NCBI GenBank assembly: GCA_027065555.1
Contig: JAMONS010000040.1
Location: forward strand, 1 to 43,424
Length of the DNA stretch: 43,424 nucleotides
Origin: Hyphomicrobiales bacterium
GTDB taxonomy: Bacteria > Pseudomonadota > Alphaproteobacteria > Rhizobiales > Devosiaceae
Direction of reading: 5' to 3'
Part shown: positions 15,304 through 35,316 of the stretch, piece after piece
Position numbering within the stretch: position 1 is the first letter of the stretch
Layout: each line of letters opens with the position of its first letter
Notes under the pieces: generated by a model
Told to the model about the DNA's origin: nothing
What the model saw: the letters and a program-made list of their open reading frames with translations, nothing else
The model's database searches: none
Position numbers and translations under genes: made by a program

Positions 15304-15335
15304 AGGGGAACTGGTCAATCAGTTCCCCTTTTATT
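15304..15335 (+). terminator. Rho-independent terminator of rplU-rpmA
   Basis: AGGGGAACTG at 15304-15313 pairs with CAGTTCCCCT at 15320-15329 (a perfect 10-bp stem, 6-base loop), followed by TTTATTTT. Confidence 0.93.
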
Positions 15336-15358
15336 TTGCAGCTCCCCTTTTATTTTGG
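15321..15358 (+). repeat. 19-bp tandem duplication including the terminator arm
   Basis: 15321-15339 and 15340-15358 are consecutive 19-base copies differing at two positions; the shared part is TCCCCTTTTATTTTG. The first copy is the 3' arm and T-tract of the rpmA terminator. The second runs into the leader of the GNAT gene. Confidence 0.9.
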
Positions 15359-21862: not shown

Positions 21863-22216
21863 CTAAAATAAATCTACTTCACCATGCTCAATACGTGCTG
21901 ATATACCAGATAGTTTAGGATTTGCTAATTCATCAAGTGTCATGTGCGACCAAATCTCATCAAATTGCTTATTATTGATTGAACCATCTTTCTCGACCAT
22001 TTTGCGAATAGCTTTTGCCATATTGTCACAGCGCTGCTCGATTCTATCTTGACCTTGAAGGGCATGGATAATCTCATTAACAGCCTGTTTATTGGCTTCT
22101 TTACTTGATATATTACTCTCTTGTAAAATATCTAGCGCTTTAATAATTCCGTTCACCAACTCTTTGGTCTGGCGAGTGGTTTCATCAAGTTCTCTAGCTA
22201 GTCTTTTTAATGGCAT
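21863..22216 (-). CDS. cheT: CheT-like putative CheY phosphatase with a CheZ-type DxxxQ motif
   Basis: A 117-residue, almost wholly helical protein. The helix EIIHALQGQDRIEQRCDNMA contains QDRIEQ, a D-x-x-x-Q motif like the catalytic Asp/Gln of E. coli CheZ (F-Q-D-L-T-G-Q). S. meliloti CheT, encoded in the che operon beside cheD, is reported to have a predicted helix with DxxxQ and to speed CheY1-P decay. Size, motif and location agree. Here, unusually, the gene is on the opposite strand, convergent with cheW and divergent from cheD. The C-terminus is GEVDLF, resembling the CheD tail. The ATG at 22216 has no clear Shine-Dalgarno. Homology to CheT is inferred, not aligned. Confidence 0.68.
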   Translation of the reverse strand: MPLKRLARELDETTRQTKELVNGIIKALDILQESNISSKEANKQAVNEIIHALQGQDRIEQRCDNMAKAIRKMVEKDGSINNKQFDEIWSHMTLDELANPKLSGISARIEHGEVDLF

Positions 22217-22393: not shown

Positions 22394-22984
22394 ATGGCAA
22401 GAAGAGAAGCGCTTCCTAACGGGTTTGATAGAGGTGTAGTCACAACGGTTCATCAGGGCGATTGCCATGTATCGAATGAAAGCGACGTTACGTTTTCTAC
22501 AGTGCTTGGCTCATGTATTAGTGCATGTGTTCGTGATAAGGTTTCAAATGTTGGCGGCATGAACCATTTTCTTTTGGCTGAGCAATCAGGATCTGCTAAA
22601 AATCGCTTTGGCGCTTCCGCTCGTTATGGCGCTTATGCAATGGAAGAATTGATAAATATGGTGCTAAAACAAGGTACTGGCTTAAAGAAAAATCTAGAAA
22701 TAAAAGTTTTTGGTGGCGGAAAAATTAACGCCTCGCTAGCTGATGTTGGCGCTGCAAATATCGACTTTGTGCATAGATTTCTTAGCGATGAGGGATATAG
22801 AATTACTAGTGAAGATATGGGCGGAACATTTGCTCGTAGGGTTCTTTATAATCCAACTAGCGGTCGAGTTCGAATTAAACGACTTGATAGTGAAGCTGGG
22901 CAAAATATTGTTCGTGAAGAATTCAAGATTGCAAGTTCTCAAAAAGTTGCTAAACCAGCAGATGATGATATTGAATTGTTCTAG
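22394..22984 (+). CDS. cheD: Chemoreceptor glutamine deamidase CheD
   Basis: A 196-residue enzyme that deamidates receptor glutamines to glutamates during adaptation. The catalytic pair is Cys41 in TVLGSCISACVRD and His58 in VGGMNHFLL, 17 residues apart as in known CheD proteins. KVFGGGKI and NIDFVHRFLSDEGY are also typical. The C-terminal 30 residues run beyond the catalytic fold and end ADDDIELF, resembling the CheT end. AGGG lies about 9 bases before the ATG. It begins the second chemotaxis block (cheD, receptor, cheR, cheB, cheY2). Confidence 0.93.
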   Translation: MARREALPNGFDRGVVTTVHQGDCHVSNESDVTFSTVLGSCISACVRDKVSNVGGMNHFLLAEQSGSAKNRFGASARYGAYAMEELINMVLKQGTGLKKNLEIKVFGGGKINASLADVGAANIDFVHRFLSDEGYRITSEDMGGTFARRVLYNPTSGRVRIKRLDSEAGQNIVREEFKIASSQKVAKPADDDIELF

Positions 22985-24733: not shown

Positions 24734-25597
24734 ATGGAAAATAAAGATATTGAATTGAGCGAAAAAGAATTCTCTATGGTAAAAGAGAGAATTTTTGAAG
24801 TTGCAGGCATTTCATTAAGTGATGCTAAGCGCACTTTGGTTATTTCTCGCCTAAGCAAAGTAATAAAAAAACTATCTCTAAATAGTTTCTTGGATTATCT
24901 AGATTTTCTTAAAGGTTCAAAAGCCAGCAAAAAAGACGCACAAGATTTTGTAAATGCTTTAACTACTAATCTTACCAGATTTTATCGTGAAGATCATCAT
25001 TTTGATCATTTAGAAAATTATATAAAGCAAATCATTGCCACAAAACCACGCACCAGCAATAATGGAAAACCACGTCTTAGGATTTGGTCGGCTGGTTGTT
25101 CATCAGGGCAAGAGCCATATACTATTGCTATGTGCCTATATAATAAATTCCCAGAATTAAAACGTTGGGACTTTAAGATATTAGCTAGTGATATTGACAC
25201 CGAAGTGCTAAAAAAAGCAGCGGGCGGAATTTATCCTGAAACAGAATTAGCTGGCCTAAGCGCAAATCGTGCAAAAATGTTTGAACGTCCAGGAAATGGC
25301 ACAATAGTAATACCAAAATATATACGTGAGACGGTGATTTTTAAACCATTAAACCTGTTTCACAAGTGGCCAATAAAAGGCCCATTTGATGCTATTTTTT
25401 GCAGGAACGTAGCAATTTATTTTGACAAGCCAATACAAAACCAACTTTTTTCTCAACTAAGCGAAGTATTAGCGCCAGATGCCTTCATGTATATTGGCCA
25501 TTCTGAAAATGTTGGCCGCAATAACCCACAATTCTCATTATCTGGAAAGACCCTATATCAATATCATGCGCCGCAAAATTCAAGAGCAGTGGCATGA
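24734..25597 (+). CDS. cheR: Chemotaxis protein methyltransferase CheR
   Basis: 287 residues from ATG 24734; a GGAG lies 12 bases upstream and a TTG six codons earlier is possible. The N-terminal all-helical domain is about 1-85, with NLTRFYREDHHF (family N-L-T-x-F-F-R-E). The SAM-binding domain has RIWSAGCSSGQEPYT and later GPFDAIFCRNVAIYFD. It methylates receptor glutamates using S-adenosylmethionine. No C-terminal TPR is present. It overlaps cheB by four bases (ATGA), so the antagonistic pair is translationally coupled. Confidence 0.96.
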   Translation: MENKDIELSEKEFSMVKERIFEVAGISLSDAKRTLVISRLSKVIKKLSLNSFLDYLDFLKGSKASKKDAQDFVNALTTNLTRFYREDHHFDHLENYIKQIIATKPRTSNNGKPRLRIWSAGCSSGQEPYTIAMCLYNKFPELKRWDFKILASDIDTEVLKKAAGGIYPETELAGLSANRAKMFERPGNGTIVIPKYIRETVIFKPLNLFHKWPIKGPFDAIFCRNVAIYFDKPIQNQLFSQLSEVLAPDAFMYIGHSENVGRNNPQFSLSGKTLYQYHAPQNSRAVA

Positions 25598-26631
25598 GCG
25601 TAAAAGTTTTAGTGGTCGATGATAGTGCGCTTATTCGCTCCGTTTTAACAAAGGTGCTAAATAATGATGCGGGTATTAAAGTTGTGGGTTCTGCAATAGA
25701 TCCGATAGATGCCCGTAAAAAAATCAAAGAATTAAATCCCGATGTTTTAACATTAGATATTGAAATGCCCAATATGAACGGGCTTGAGTTTTTAGATAAA
25801 TTAATGCGCCTGCGCCCCATGCCGGTTGTGATGGTTTCAACATTAACGCAAAAGGGGGCAGAAGAAACGCTTTTAGCTCTTGAATTGGGAGCAGTGGATT
25901 TTGTTGCAAAACCAAATGCCAATCTAACCACAGGCCTTGATGAATTTGGGGCAGAGGTTTGTCAAAAGGTTCATGCAGCTGCAAAAAGCTCTGCCCGCTC
26001 TCGTGGTATGCGAGCAAAAGTCCCGCAAATTGCAATAACTAGCGCTAGCGCACCTCAAGGATCGCTAATAGCCATTGGTGCTTCAACTGGTGGTGTTGAA
26101 GCAATAAGGGCAGTGTTAATAAAAATGCCAAAAGATTGCCCGCCAATTGTTATCACTCAACATATGCCCGTTGGCTTTACTGAGCGATTTGCCACTCGTC
26201 TAAATGATTTATGTGACATTGAAGTTTGCGAAGCGCAAGATCGCATGGTGCTTGAAGTGGGTCATGCCTATATTGCTAAAGGTGGGGTACATTTACGAGT
26301 TGAAAAAAGCTCAGGCCAATTAAAATGCCGCCTTGAGGATAGCGATGAAGTTTCGGGGCACAAGCCAAGTGTTGATGTTTTATTTAAATCGGTTGCTAAA
26401 AATGTAAGCAACAAAGCTATTGGCGTTATTCTAACTGGCATGGGTCGTGATGGTGCAATAGGCCTTAAGGAAATGCAGCAAGCAGGTGCATTTACCATTG
26501 GTCAATCTGAAATATCTTCCCTTGTTTATGGCATGCCAAAAGTTGCTTTTGAAGAGGGGGCTGTTAGTGAGCAAGCAGATATAGATAATGTTGCTTCTCG
26601 CATTGCAATGGCGACAACAAAATTAAAATAA
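25594..26631 (+). CDS. cheB: Chemotaxis response regulator methylesterase CheB
   Basis: A 345-residue protein. The receiver domain (1 to about 120) has phospho-Asp55 in LTLDIEMPNMNGLEFLDKL. A linker follows. The esterase domain (about 155-340) has the catalytic triad Ser164 (GASTGGVEA), His190 (ITQHMPVGFTERFATRL) and Asp287 (LTGMGRDGAIGL). It removes receptor methyl groups and deamidates glutamines when phosphorylated by CheA. The residue numbers nearly equal those of the E. coli enzyme, indicating an intact full-length protein. Confidence 0.97.
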   Translation: MSVKVLVVDDSALIRSVLTKVLNNDAGIKVVGSAIDPIDARKKIKELNPDVLTLDIEMPNMNGLEFLDKLMRLRPMPVVMVSTLTQKGAEETLLALELGAVDFVAKPNANLTTGLDEFGAEVCQKVHAAAKSSARSRGMRAKVPQIAITSASAPQGSLIAIGASTGGVEAIRAVLIKMPKDCPPIVITQHMPVGFTERFATRLNDLCDIEVCEAQDRMVLEVGHAYIAKGGVHLRVEKSSGQLKCRLEDSDEVSGHKPSVDVLFKSVAKNVSNKAIGVILTGMGRDGAIGLKEMQQAGAFTIGQSEISSLVYGMPKVAFEEGAVSEQADIDNVASRIAMATTKLK

Positions 26632-26671
26632 TAAATTTTTATAAGTTTGACAAAAAAGTAACTTTTTCAAT

Positions 26672-26703
26672 CTAAGTATTAATCCTGCTAAGTATTAATC
26701 CTG
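26672..26703 (+). repeat. Perfect 16-bp tandem duplication upstream of cheY2
   Basis: CTAAGTATTAATCCTG occurs at 26672-26687 and again immediately at 26688-26703, with no mismatch. It lies in the 133-bp gap between cheB and cheY2. The identity suggests a recent duplication. Confidence 0.97.
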
Positions 26704-26740
26704 AAATTATAAGTAATGAGCCTTAAGCCCATAAACAGAA

Positions 26741-26762
26741 TAGAGTAGAGTAGAGTAGAGTA
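26741..26762 (+). repeat. (TAGAG)4 pentanucleotide repeat at the cheY2 ribosome binding site
   Basis: Four perfect TAGAG units plus TA end two bases before the cheY2 ATG at 26765. The GAG words are the only Shine-Dalgarno-like sequence available, so a change in repeat number would alter the number and spacing of binding sites without touching the reading frame. Confidence 0.95.
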
Positions 26763-26764
26763 AA

Positions 26765-27154
26765 ATGCCAAAAGCTAGTGCAATTAGTGTGTTAATAGTA
26801 GATGACCAGCAATCAATGCGTGGTATCTGTAAATATATCCTCAATCAACTTGGGTTCAACCAAATCACCGAAGCGAAAAGCGGACGTGATGCGCTTGGAA
26901 AGTTAGAAAAAACTAGAGTTGATCTAATTATTTCTGATTGGAATATGGACGATATTGACGGGCTTACTTTGCTTAAAGTATTGCGCAAACACCCCAAAAC
27001 CGCAAAAATGCCGTTTATTATGGCAACTGGCCGTTCAGATAAAGAACAAGTGCAAGAAGCAATTTCTTGTGGTGTAAATAATTATATTATCAAACCATTT
27101 GATGCAGGTTCAATGAAGAAAAAAATTGAAGCAGTTATTGGCGTTCTAAGCTAA
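26765..27154 (+). CDS. cheY2: Chemotaxis response regulator CheY2 (presumed motor regulator)
   Basis: A 129-residue receiver with Asp13/Asp14, phospho-Asp58 (LIISDWNMDDIDGL), Thr88 and Lys110 (IIKPF). The ISDWNMxxxDG segment is typical of motor-binding CheY proteins, more so than CheY1 of this cluster. It is last in the cheD-receptor-cheR-cheB-cheY2 block. By analogy with S. meliloti, CheY2-P acts on the flagellar switch and loses phosphate back through CheA to CheY1. No flagellar genes are in this window. Confidence 0.93.
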   Translation: MPKASAISVLIVDDQQSMRGICKYILNQLGFNQITEAKSGRDALGKLEKTRVDLIISDWNMDDIDGLTLLKVLRKHPKTAKMPFIMATGRSDKEQVQEAISCGVNNYIIKPFDAGSMKKKIEAVIGVLS

Positions 27155-27250
27155 TTCAATTATTAAAGAAATTATTTATCACCTCAAATTTTTACTAATT
27201 AGCGGTACATTATTTTTAATCTCTAATTTTAATAATCTTACAAACCTTAT

Positions 27251-27328
27251 CTAACCCAAAATACCACTTTCTTTTATGCCGTCAAAAATAAATTGAACGG
27301 CTAATGCGGCGGGCAAAGAAATGTTGCT
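27251..27328 (-). pseudogene. C-terminal remnant resembling a MarC-family membrane protein
   Basis: The minus strand reads SNISLPAALAVQFIFDGIKE plus SGILG and a stop at 27251-27253, with a stop codon directly before it in frame. The AxAVQFxxDGIK pattern is that of the last membrane helix of MarC/SnatA-type proteins. Nothing recognisable precedes it in any frame, so only the last 25 codons survive. It lies in the 274-bp gap between cheY2 and lemA. The rest of that gap shows no gene. A chance resemblance cannot be excluded. Confidence 0.45.
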
Positions 27329-27428
27329 CTATGCTGTTGACATTCTCACATGCTTACTGGTCTAATTTAAATAGTTTTTACTAGATAATACATTATTGGC
27401 CATTAATTATTCTATTAGGAGAAGAAAA

Positions 27429-27989
27429 ATGGAATTAAGTTGGATAATATTGGGGCTAATTGTAATTGGCGCTATCTATGCAATTATTATTTATAATAAT
27501 TTTATCAAAAACCGCCAATTAGTTGAAGAAGGCTGGTCAGGAATTGATGTGCAGCTTAAACGTAGAGCAAATCTTATTCCTAATATGCTTGAAACCGTTA
27601 AGGGCTATATGGGGCATGAAAAGGGAGTGCTTGAGGCAGTAACAAATGCCCGTGCCGCTGTGCAAGGCGCAGGGAACACTGGCCCAGCTGAGCGCTCAAA
27701 ACTTGAAGGATTGCTTTCTGGTGCTTTAGGAAAATTAATAGCTGTTGCAGAAAATTATCCTGACCTTAAAGCCAATACTACTTTTTTGGAATTTCAAGGT
27801 TCTTTGCAAATGGTAGAAGATGAAATTCAACTCTCACGCCGCTATTATAACGGCTCGGTGCGCAACTTAAACGTATTAGTGGAATCCTTTCCATCAAACC
27901 TTATTGCAAATGCTTTTAAGTTTATTAAGGCTGAATATTTTGAACTTGAAAATGAAGCTGAGCGAGCAGTGCCAGATGTTTCCTTTAAT
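27429..27989 (+). CDS. LemA family protein
   Basis: 187 residues from ATG 27429, which is preceded by AGGAGAAGA; the eleven-codon longer frame is rejected on that basis. One N-terminal membrane helix (WIILGLIVIGAIYAIIIYNN) is followed by the LemA helical domain: EEGWSGIDVQLKRRANLIPN, the signature of the family, then ENYPDLKANTTFLEFQ and SRRYYNGSVRNLN. LemA proteins are anchored in the inner membrane with a helical bundle outside; the function is unknown, but they are repeatedly paired with DUF2207 or TPM-domain proteins as here. The frame's stop codon is at 27990-27992. Confidence 0.93.
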
Positions 27990-29922
27990 TAGCAGCTTGC
28001 AAATAACTAAGGTCTTGCAAATAACTAAGGTCTTGCAAAGGTTTATATTTAGCAAAATATTGCTACTCATTAGCTTGTTATTTTTTATACTCCCGCTCCA
28101 TGCTCAAGAAGTAATAAATTCATATTCAACAGATATCGTTGTAAATATTGATGGCTCGGTTGAAATAGTTGAATATATTGATGTGCGTGCTGAGGGGGAT
28201 AAAATCAAGCGTGGGATATATCGAGATATTGCTACCACTATGAAAAATGATGACGGCTCAGATTTTCGATCAGAACTTGAAATTATTTCTATTAAAAAAA
28301 ATGGGCAAGACGAGCCATTTTCTACTAAAAAAATTACCAATGGAAAACGCATTTATATTGGTGAGGCCTCAGTTTTTTTAGAGCCCGGTAATTATCACTA
28401 TATGATTAAATATTCCATGTCACGCCAAGTTAGATTTTTTGAAACCCATGACGAGTTATTTTTCAATGTTATAGGTCATTTTTGGGATTTCCCAATCAAA
28501 CAAGCCATTGCTCGCATTAGGCTTCCCGATGGAGCAATTATTTCGGATTTGGTTGGCTATACGGGCGCAACTGGTTCAACTGAACAGGCGCTAACAATCA
28601 CTAAAACCAGCAATAATAGTGCCGTTTTTCAGGCAACTCGCCCTCTAAATTCTTATGAAGGCATGAGTGTGGCGGTTAAATTTCAAAAAGGCATAATTGC
28701 TGAGCCTGCTGGAATTGAAGAAACAGCGCTTTATCTTTCAGATAGGCGAAATATTATAATTCCCATCAGCGGAGCTTTTTTGATGCTGTTTTATTATCTA
28801 TTTGCATGGAATAAAATCGGACGAGACCCTAAAAAAGGAACTATTATTCCGCTTTTTTATCCACCCAAAGGATTTTCTCCAGCGCTTATTCACTATATTT
28901 GGAAAATGGGCTGGAAGAAAAATGGTTGGACAGCCTATAGCGCTGCTTTGCTTAATCTTGCCATCAAGGGTCTAATAACAATAGATAAAAAGAAGGGCTC
29001 AACAAGAATTGATCTAACTAACGAGCCAGCAATATCTTTGCCACCGGGTGAGCAAATTATTTATGATTATATTCAATCAAAGGGCACGGTATTTTTTAAT
29101 AAGGCACATGGAGTAAAATTAAATAAGACCAGAGAAGAATTTGTCAAAATAATTGGCACCGAAAACCGCCATGCTTTTTTCAAAAATAATGCTTCTTATG
29201 TTATTATAGGGTTTGTTCTTTCTGCTATTAGCTTAATTATGATGATAGTTTTTGGATTATTGAGCCCTGTTTATGCTGTGTTCGCAATGGTCATTGGAAT
29301 TGCTATCGCTTTGATAATTGCTGCATTTAGCAATGTTTGGCTTAAGAGTGGATTTGCAAAAATATTTATTTTTGTTTGGCTATTTATAATGGCATTTAAT
29401 GTGTCTGGCACATTACTATCTTTTGCTCAGATAAATTCAAACATTAGTTCAATAATCGCAACAACTAGCATAGTCGCTCTTAACGTGTTATTTGCATTTC
29501 TTATGCGCGCTCCCACTGTGCATGGACGAAAAACCATGGATCAAATTGATGGCTTTCGCATGTATCTTGAGACAGCTGAAAAACAGCGCCTTAATATGAT
29601 TGATGAGCCAGAAATGAGCGTTAAAAGATTTGAAAAAATATTGCCATTTGCCGTGGCTTTAGGCGTTGAAAAACCATGGTCGCAACATTTTGAAAGCGAA
29701 TTAGCACGAAACGCAGTTTCTGATGCTAGTAGTGGGTATAATCCTACTTGGCTAAGCGGCACTTCTTATTCTGCCTCAAGCCTAAGTAAATCTATGTCAA
29801 AACTAGCAACAGGCATGAGCGCCTCAATGATTGCGGCGCAACCTTCAAGCTCTTCTTCATCTGGGTTTTCTGGTGGTGGTGGAGGCGGTGGGGGCGGCGG
29901 CGGTGGCGGTGGCGGCTGGTAG
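27976..29922 (+). CDS. DUF2207 domain-containing membrane protein with Gly-rich C-terminus
   Basis: About 648 residues from ATG 27976, overlapping lemA by 17 bp. A signal peptide (hydrophobic LLLISLLFFILPLHAQ, cleaved near AQE) leads into a periplasmic DUF2207 domain with a VEIVEYIDVRAEGDKIKRGI segment. A membrane helix follows at about 255, then a cytoplasmic part starting WNKIGRDP, and further helices between about 405 and 500. The C-terminus is Ser-rich then FSGGGGGG through about 16 glycines to a final Trp, a feature common in DUF2207 proteins. The start is uncertain: the signal-peptide n-region carries a duplicated LQITKV. Function unknown; it probably works with LemA. Confidence 0.82.
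   Translation: MFPLISSLQITKVLQITKVLQRFIFSKILLLISLLFFILPLHAQEVINSYSTDIVVNIDGSVEIVEYIDVRAEGDKIKRGIYRDIATTMKNDDGSDFRSELEIISIKKNGQDEPFSTKKITNGKRIYIGEASVFLEPGNYHYMIKYSMSRQVRFFETHDELFFNVIGHFWDFPIKQAIARIRLPDGAIISDLVGYTGATGSTEQALTITKTSNNSAVFQATRPLNSYEGMSVAVKFQKGIIAEPAGIEETALYLSDRRNIIIPISGAFLMLFYYLFAWNKIGRDPKKGTIIPLFYPPKGFSPALIHYIWKMGWKKNGWTAYSAALLNLAIKGLITIDKKKGSTRIDLTNEPAISLPPGEQIIYDYIQSKGTVFFNKAHGVKLNKTREEFVKIIGTENRHAFFKNNASYVIIGFVLSAISLIMMIVFGLLSPVYAVFAMVIGIAIALIIAAFSNVWLKSGFAKIFIFVWLFIMAFNVSGTLLSFAQINSNISSIIATTSIVALNVLFAFLMRAPTVHGRKTMDQIDGFRMYLETAEKQRLNMIDEPEMSVKRFEKILPFAVALGVEKPWSQHFESELARNAVSDASSGYNPTWLSGTSYSASSLSKSMSKLATGMSASMIAAQPSSSSSSGFSGGGGGGGGGGGGGGGW
27996..28031 (+). repeat. Perfect 18-bp tandem duplication inside the DUF2207 signal region
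   Basis: CTTGCAAATAACTAAGGT at 27996-28013 is repeated at 28014-28031, with a third partial copy (CTTGCAAAGG) following. In frame it gives LQITKV twice, lengthening the n-region of the signal peptide by six residues. Confidence 0.97.
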
Positions 29923-34127: not shown

Positions 34128-35287
34128 TTCTTAAACAGGCCTTTTAATTTGGCAAAAAACCCAGACGAAGTCGGGCTGTTATTTTCTTTTGATATTTTTT
34201 GAAATTCTTCTAATAATTCACGTTGACGTTTAGAAAGGTTTTGCGGAATTTCAACGTCCATTTGCACATATAAGTCGCCAAATTTCGTAGTTCTTAAAAT
34301 TGGCATACCTTTGCCCTTTAAGCGCACTCTTTGCCCCGGTTGCATTCCTTTATCCACTTTTACCTTTGCCCTTTTGCCATCAAGAGTTGGCACTTCAAAA
34401 TCACCACCAAGCGCTGCAACAGACATGGTAATTGGCACACGTGCATAAATATCAGCGCCATCACGAGCAAATAACTCATGAGATTTTATTGTAACAAATA
34501 TATAAAGATCGCCAGCAGGGCCACCACGCATTCCAGCCTCGCCCTCATTGCTTAAGCGAATACGAGTGCCATCTTCAATTCCTTTTGGAATATCAACTGA
34601 AAGTTTACGAGATTTTTGCACCCGCCCCTGCCCCGTACAATCTGTGCAAGGTTGATCCATAGTTTGCCCACGTCCATGACAATGCGGGCATGTGCGCTCA
34701 ATAGTAAAAAAACCTTGCGAAGCGCGTACCTTGCCATGACCATTGCATGAGCTACATGCGCTCATTCCCGTGCCCGGCTTTGCGCCCGAGCCTTCACAAA
34801 TCTCACAAGCGGCCATGCTTGGAACATCAATTTCAACAGTGCGCCCTAAAAACGCTTCATCTAATTCTACTTCAAGATTATATCTAAGATCAGAACCCCT
34901 TAAAGCCGAAGGGCGCTCTCGCCCTCGAGCGCCAGCCGCTCCTGCAGCTCCCCCTGCCGCTCCCATAAAATCGCCAAAAATATCTTCAAACATATCGGAC
35001 ATAGAAGACGAGAAATCATTACCAAAACCTTGCGCTTGCCCTCGTGCGCCCATGCCACCATTTTCAAAAGCTGCATGGCCAAAACGATCATAAGCGGCAC
35101 GTTTTTGCGGGTTTTTTAGAGTGTCGTATGCCTCGCTGATTTCTTTGAATTTATGTTCAGCGCTTTCATCGTTCGGGTTACGATCTGGGTGGAACTGCAT
35201 TGCCAATTTACGATAGGCAGATTTAAGTACCTTTTCATCGGCGCTTTTTTCAACCTCTAATATTTCATAATAACAAATTTTAGACAA
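34124..35287 (-). CDS. dnaJ: Chaperone DnaJ (Hsp40)
   Basis: A 387-residue co-chaperone stimulating DnaK ATPase. The J domain has HPD at 33-35 and [13 protein letters not shown] at the start. A Gly/Phe/Ala-rich region follows at about 80-125. The zinc-binding domain has four CxxCxGxG repeats ([32 protein letters not shown]), then the C-terminal substrate domains. The initiation codon must be TTG at 35285-35287: no ATG or GTG lies near it in frame, and the usual M-S-K-x-x-Y-Y-E start aligns exactly. AAGGG sits about 9 bases before it. The start lies in a 16-bp tandem duplication. Confidence 0.95.
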
Positions 35288-35316
35288 TTTGTAGCACCCT
35301 TAATTTGTAGTACCCT
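35285..35316 (-). repeat. 16-bp imperfect tandem duplication at the dnaJ start
   Basis: On the minus strand AGGGTACTACAAATTA is followed by AGGGTGCTACAAATTG, two consecutive 16-base copies with two differences. The second copy ends in the TTG start codon of dnaJ. The AGGG Shine-Dalgarno is thereby present twice. Confidence 0.9.

Follow-up and report, generated by a model that had tools for sequence, protein, structure and literature searches.

In the engineered rbSSR of Egbert and Klavins, a repeat reportedly separates a strong Shine–Dalgarno sequence from the ATG, so that a change in repeat length changes the spacing. In Moraxella catarrhalis, the AGAT(n) tract of uspA2 has 13–18 units; it shows variation between strains as well as in fragment analysis, together with a measured change in expression (PMC7302503). 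In marine Beggiatoaceae, 169 sets of one heptamer, TAACTGA, are described as direct repeats before start codons throughout the genome, and in two Cyanothece strains indels that are mostly whole repeat units (PMC4679880). Here we describe a perfect (TAGAG)4 tract in the presumed 5′ leader of cheY2, a gene of the chemotaxis (che) cluster on contig JAMONS010000040.1 (assembly GCA_027065555.1) of a Hyphomicrobiales bacterium of the Devosiaceae; the whole stretch of 43,424 nt that was analysed is referred to as the window. The TAGAG tract, like that of uspA2, is a simple sequence repeat preceding an open reading frame, but it has four units and is known from genome sequence. Like the TAACTGA repeats, its units stand in tandem directly before a start codon and have little Shine–Dalgarno character; unlike them, they have another sequence and occur at a single locus rather than before many genes, and because there is one copy in the genome a common binding factor cannot be argued for. 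The tract adjoins the ribosome-binding site, as the engineered repeat does, but here the repeat is itself the only candidate site and its spacing to the ATG is constant. A literature search on cheY, tandem repeats, phase variation and motility found nothing resembling the cheY2 case among titles and the beginnings of abstracts.

The tract is a genuine repeat of low copy number, specific to its lineage, in a ribosome-binding leader that has decayed, and we think it probable that it arose by lineage-specific slippage expansion of a decayed Shine–Dalgarno motif. The four units follow one another with no mismatch and lie where the ribosome should bind, as the initial annotation had said; its statement that the tract ends two bases before the ATG was mistaken, as four bases (TAAA) intervene, and the end coordinate it gave, 26767, takes in the ATG of cheY2. 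Tandem Repeats Finder reports an array at 26737–26762 with period 5, 5.2 copies of AGAGT and 95% matches. The window has three TAGAGTAGAG matches, all within the tract, compared with an expected 0.04, and none of 100 shuffles contained at least three. The source genome is a metagenome-assembled draft of 2,062,225 bases in 139 contigs, 93% complete, in which at least three TAGAG units occur at a single place, the cheY2 leader. In a sample of 269,979 bases (20 stretches and the window; GC fraction 0.389), (TAGAG)4 is the only perfect tract of at least four units with a period of 4–8, and 20 Markov-1 simulations of the same length produced no 5-mer tract of four units. It is thus, as in contingency loci, a perfect tandem repeat exceeding chance length, although the sampled bases show no genome-wide richness in slippage tracts. 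A genome-wide TAGAG leader motif was considered and ruled out, as arrays of at least three units occur at cheY2 only and all three TAGAGTAGAG matches in the source genome (G000) lie within the tract.

Comparison with relatives shows that the number of units is not fixed. We collected 110 loci, which yielded 85 distinct cheY2 upstream regions, with one genome per species in the comparison of unit numbers. The best 80 named CheY2 relatives are 82–92% identical and belong to Devosia, Pelagibacterium, Maritalea, Cucumibacter and metagenome-assembled genomes mostly labelled Hyphomicrobiales or Alphaproteobacteria. On the strength of these relatives we assign the source genome to an uncultured, low-GC genus of the Devosiaceae. 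The start codon is ATG in 83 of the 85 regions and GTG in the other 2, and 81 of the orthologues start with MPKA (the remainder with VPKA in two cases, MPRA and MPQA); given this conserved start, the predicted start codon of cheY2 is sound. Three of four congeners have a cheY2 orthologue. The fourth, G004, is the closest sister at the DNA level (93% across the query's first 468 bases); its assembly breaks inside cheB and the cheY2 region is not represented there. The units directly before the cheY2 ATG number one in G001 (ATAGAGTAA), about two in G003 (AAGAGTAGAGTAAA) and, in a six-base version, two in G002 (AAGAGTAAGAGTAAG). With unit numbers of 4, 1, about 2 and 2, the tract is therefore labile between species; the variability of copy number supposed in the initial annotation holds to this extent, at the species level only. 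In many Devosia, roughly this position is occupied by AGAGGU(A), with a TAGAGGTAA-like sequence approximately 8–10 nt before the ATG, and by comparison AGAGTA is a reduced form of the TAGAGGTAA-like motif in this low-GC genus.

The pairing potential of the leader is low. Each TAGAG unit offers GAG within an AGAGU pairing of −2.4 kcal/mol, calculated with what we take to be the anti-Shine–Dalgarno sequence. The same AGAGU-only pairing is shared by every one of the four cheY2-bearing genomes of the genus, which all lack the GG of AGAGGU, compared with a family median of −5.5 over the 85 regions and −7.1 for the AGAGGUA of many Devosia. The weakest Shine–Dalgarno sequences of the 85 regions are those of the four genomes of the genus and of locus L005. 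Among 13 other genes examined in the window, nine have a stronger site than cheY2 and four a weaker one. The pairing, weak for the family and no better than in random sequence, therefore marks the cheY2 leader as a decayed site.

The arrangement of the leader bears directly on the idea, put forward in the initial annotation, that gain or loss of units would alter Shine–Dalgarno or promoter spacing. The distances from the ends of the AGAGU motifs to the ATG are 3, 8, 13 and 18 nt and, because the units are identical, the ATG-proximal ones stay constant with copy number above two. In an in-silico series of 0–8 units, pairing energy is constant from 1 to 8 units, and for 2–8 units the mean unpaired probability remains at 0.69–0.74 in the site region and 0.37–0.44 at the AUG. 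A promoter-like element, TTGA-N7-GTAAC, is conserved before cheY2 in the family; the strict TTGA-N7-GTAA form is present in 74 of the 85 upstream regions, and in every case where the element is seen it lies upstream of the repeat. Because it lies wholly upstream of the tract, promoter spacing is untouched by copy number. Neither the reading frame nor the spacing of the promoter or of the ribosome site would be altered, as the tract is non-coding, the element is upstream and the proximal distance is fixed. A switch function of the repeat finds no support, and both proposed spacing mechanisms are contradicted by the layout. Coordinates are collected in Table 1.

Table 1. Features of the cheB–cheY2 region, in window positions
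Feature	Coordinates	Strand	Basis or remark
cheB, upstream gene; 133-bp gap to cheY2	25594..26631	+	Member of the che cluster
TTGA-N7-GTAAC promoter-like element, conserved before cheY2 in family	26647..26662	+	Upstream-region comparison
16-bp tandem duplication, two perfect copies of CTAAGTATTAATCCTG	26672..26703	+	Repeat search, relatives
(TAGAG)4 tract without mismatch, presumed cheY2 5′ leader	26741..26760	+	Sequence, repeat and chance tests
TAAA spacer, last unit to start codon	26761..26764	+	Sequence
cheY2, 129-aa single-domain response regulator (PF00072)	26765..27154	+	Family orthologues 79–92% identical

These results lead us to propose that the TAGAGGTAA-like motif of many Devosia was reduced to AGAGTA in the low-GC genus, the direction of change being the one suggested by the comparison, and that slippage then multiplied the AGAGTA unit to four copies in the source genome. 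Perfect identity is what one would expect of units that expanded recently. The start of transcription would lie downstream of the TTGA-N7-GTAAC/CTAAGTATTA promoter, which would place the repeat within the transcript, and translation would proceed from one ATG-proximal GAG triplet in an open, purine-rich leader whose distances do not change above two copies. Additional units would then have little or only a graded effect. On the best reading the effect of the repeat on translation is modest at most, and the conserved promoter, rather than the repeat, is the most likely seat of cheY2 regulation. The locus would be a small example of a ribosome-binding leader that decays and is then enlarged again by slippage, next to a promoter that remains conserved, and the family alignment reveals which part of the cheB–cheY2 gap is under selection.

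Several points weigh against this proposal. Of 400 random 20-mers, 35.5% reach −2.4 kcal/mol, so that the pairing is no better than in random sequence and the Shine–Dalgarno reading is itself weak. The assembly contains no 16S gene, so the 3′ end cannot be read there, and the duplex and folding energies leave out S1, standby binding and cooperativity. The −10 region and the transcription start are deduced from sequence, the former from a genus of which one member, G001, lacks it. Finally, the element-to-ATG distance is 117 in G002 and 120 in G003, which have neither the 16-bp duplication nor four units, and leader length is therefore no proof of expansion.

The alternative that fares best, though we regard it as unlikely, is that the repeat has been selected as a multi-site leader, in which weak GAG motifs in series, or a single-stranded leader rich in A and G, would raise ribosome capture after decay of the strong Shine–Dalgarno sequence. 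The absence of the GG of AGAGGU from all four genus genomes that have cheY2 fits this notion, as does the presence of at least two AGAGT-like units adjoining the ATG in three of the four genus genomes, but two of the four motifs here lie farther than 12 nt from the ATG. Tandem units with a period of 5–7 are found in the last 40 nt of 15 of the 85 regions (this one included) compared with 1 of 84 in the preceding 40 nt. This family-wide excess is a hint only, as the repeats differ in sequence and the contrast is uncorrected for base composition; nor do the 15 regions represent 15 separate events, because several repeats are common to close species.

Less probable still is a slippage switch or rheostat, in which frequent changes of unit number within a population would set the level of CheY2 and hence the swimming bias. 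The tract is a perfect repeat in the ribosome-binding region, the sole one of its kind in the sampled sequence, and its unit number differs between species; however, identical units preserve the proximal spacing, promoter spacing is unaffected, and the genome has no general richness in such repeats. Expression-tuning upstream repeats are known elsewhere, for example the AGAT(n) of uspA2, but the uspA2 tracts tabulated in that report have 13–18 units compared with only four (20 bp) here, although for an eight-base upstream tract that table gives unit numbers down to 2 (PMC7302503). A stronger version, in which slippage among weak Shine–Dalgarno units would create sub-populations of differing reorientation bias, with the 16-bp duplication as a second tuning element in the same 133-bp gap, appears to us quite improbable; if true, such a rheostat, written into a ribosome-binding site, would diversify chemotactic behaviour by an unusual genetic route. 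An assembly or sequencing artefact might be suspected in a draft of this kind, but we give it hardly any credence, as 20 bp is far below the usual read length and shorter forms of the motif occupy this position in congeners.

Over the 74 regions the distance of the promoter-like element to the ATG has a median of 84, with quartiles of 82 and 86, and exceeds 100 in four: 118 here and 148, 146 and 152 in L013, L016 and L054. The strict form is absent from 11 regions; among these are G002 and G003, whose elements are related TTGA forms, and a locus with only 44 upstream bases. Within the genus, the distance of 118 compares with 87 in G001; G002, measured from a TTGA-N7-TTAAC form, and G003 are given above. 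The sum 118 = 87 + 16 + 15 had been considered as proof of expansion and was dropped; it says nothing about direction, because G002 and G003 are equally long without those copies. G002 also carries the −10-like CTAAGTAT, which appears as TTAAGTATTA in G003, in both at the place of a −10 region, and the duplication therefore doubles a −10-like box. In the window, CTAAGTATTA occurs only inside the two copies of the duplication, and in many Devosia the promoter-like element is close to TTGAGAGATTTGTAACGCTTGTTGCCTAGTGTTT. It is possible that the duplication gives two start sites 16 bp apart. Similar short tandem duplications, perfect or nearly so and with units of 16–19 bp, occur at 27996–28039, 15320–15357 and 35286–35316 of the window, and the genome may favour duplications of this size.

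A scan for consensus sigma-70 promoters found 10 promoter-like sites compared with 7.4 (standard deviation 2.3) in shuffles, and a terminator scan 2 compared with 2.4 (1.5), no excess in either case. A structured RNA in the leader was rejected, with no Rfam match in 26500–27500 and no inverted repeat in 26600–26800. A strict long form of the promoter pattern matches in 5 of 41 genomes, once in each; a regulon sharing the cheY2 promoter was accordingly rejected, four of the five places being the cheY2 promoter itself and the fifth genome, G063, lying outside that check. A literature search found no paper joining Devosia, chemotaxis, cheY and promoter.

The CtrA box is given as TTAA-N7-TTAAC in PMC7200025 and, according to PMC6180460, lies near −35 in activated promoters. 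TTGA-N7-GTAAC fits this box with two changes, a likeness of sequence only, and the genome encodes a CtrA receiver domain that is 84% identical to the query sequence. The pattern TTRA-N7-KTAAC is not enriched in the genome (65 + 52 compared with 106 + 135 for the reversed control). The cheY2 element resembles a CtrA box as a candidate only, and the counts speak against enrichment of that box.

The order of the che cluster is cheY1 (18760), cheA, cheW, a reverse-strand gene for a 117-aa protein, cheD, a receptor-like gene, cheR, cheB and cheY2, where cheW and the receptor-like gene are named from their sequence. The initial annotation presumed that cheY2 encodes the motor regulator, which is not established. 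Its product scores 101.8 bits to the best CheY in PDB, 97–102 to enterobacterial CheY and 93.5 to 1p6q, which is listed as 'CheY2' and which we take to be from Sinorhizobium meliloti. Outside the che cluster, a cheY–cheZ pair lies on contig C137 (L157, 7457–8562, +); this CheY is 47% identical to the cheY2 product; its score is 133.6 bits with E. coli-type CheY (81.0 with 1p6q), and the CheZ that follows it matches PF04344 with 45.9 bits (cut-off 30.7). In Agrobacterium fabrum, swimming is affected more strongly by deletion of cheY2 (PMC8225110). The present gene resembles the Sinorhizobium and Agrobacterium cheY2 in encoding a single-domain CheY in a che cluster with another CheY, but this genome adds a CheY–CheZ pair nearer to the E. 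coli CheY, and for this reason the motor role is not simply transferable. Either the cheY2 product or the CheZ-linked CheY could be the main motor regulator.

The 117-aa protein of the che cluster (21863–22216, −) has no Pfam or NCBIfam match. Its family is present in 21 of 37 genomes searched, that is, 21 of 23 from this bacterial family and none of 14 from others. A block QDRI(E/Q/A)QR keeps DXXXQ in all 19 aligned members, whose C-termini are ELF, DLF or EFF. DXXXQ is the CheT motif (PMC12654446), and the protein looks like a putative CheT/CheZ-like CheY phosphatase. The C-termini of CheD (22394–22984, +; DDDIELF), the 117-aa protein (GEVDLF) and CheZ (L157, 7897–8562, +; AIDELF) have in common an acidic peptide ending in LF, perhaps a docking tail. 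Elsewhere in the window, a glycine-rich repeat (29871–29916, +) lies at the C-terminus of a predicted 672-aa protein encoded downstream of lemA.
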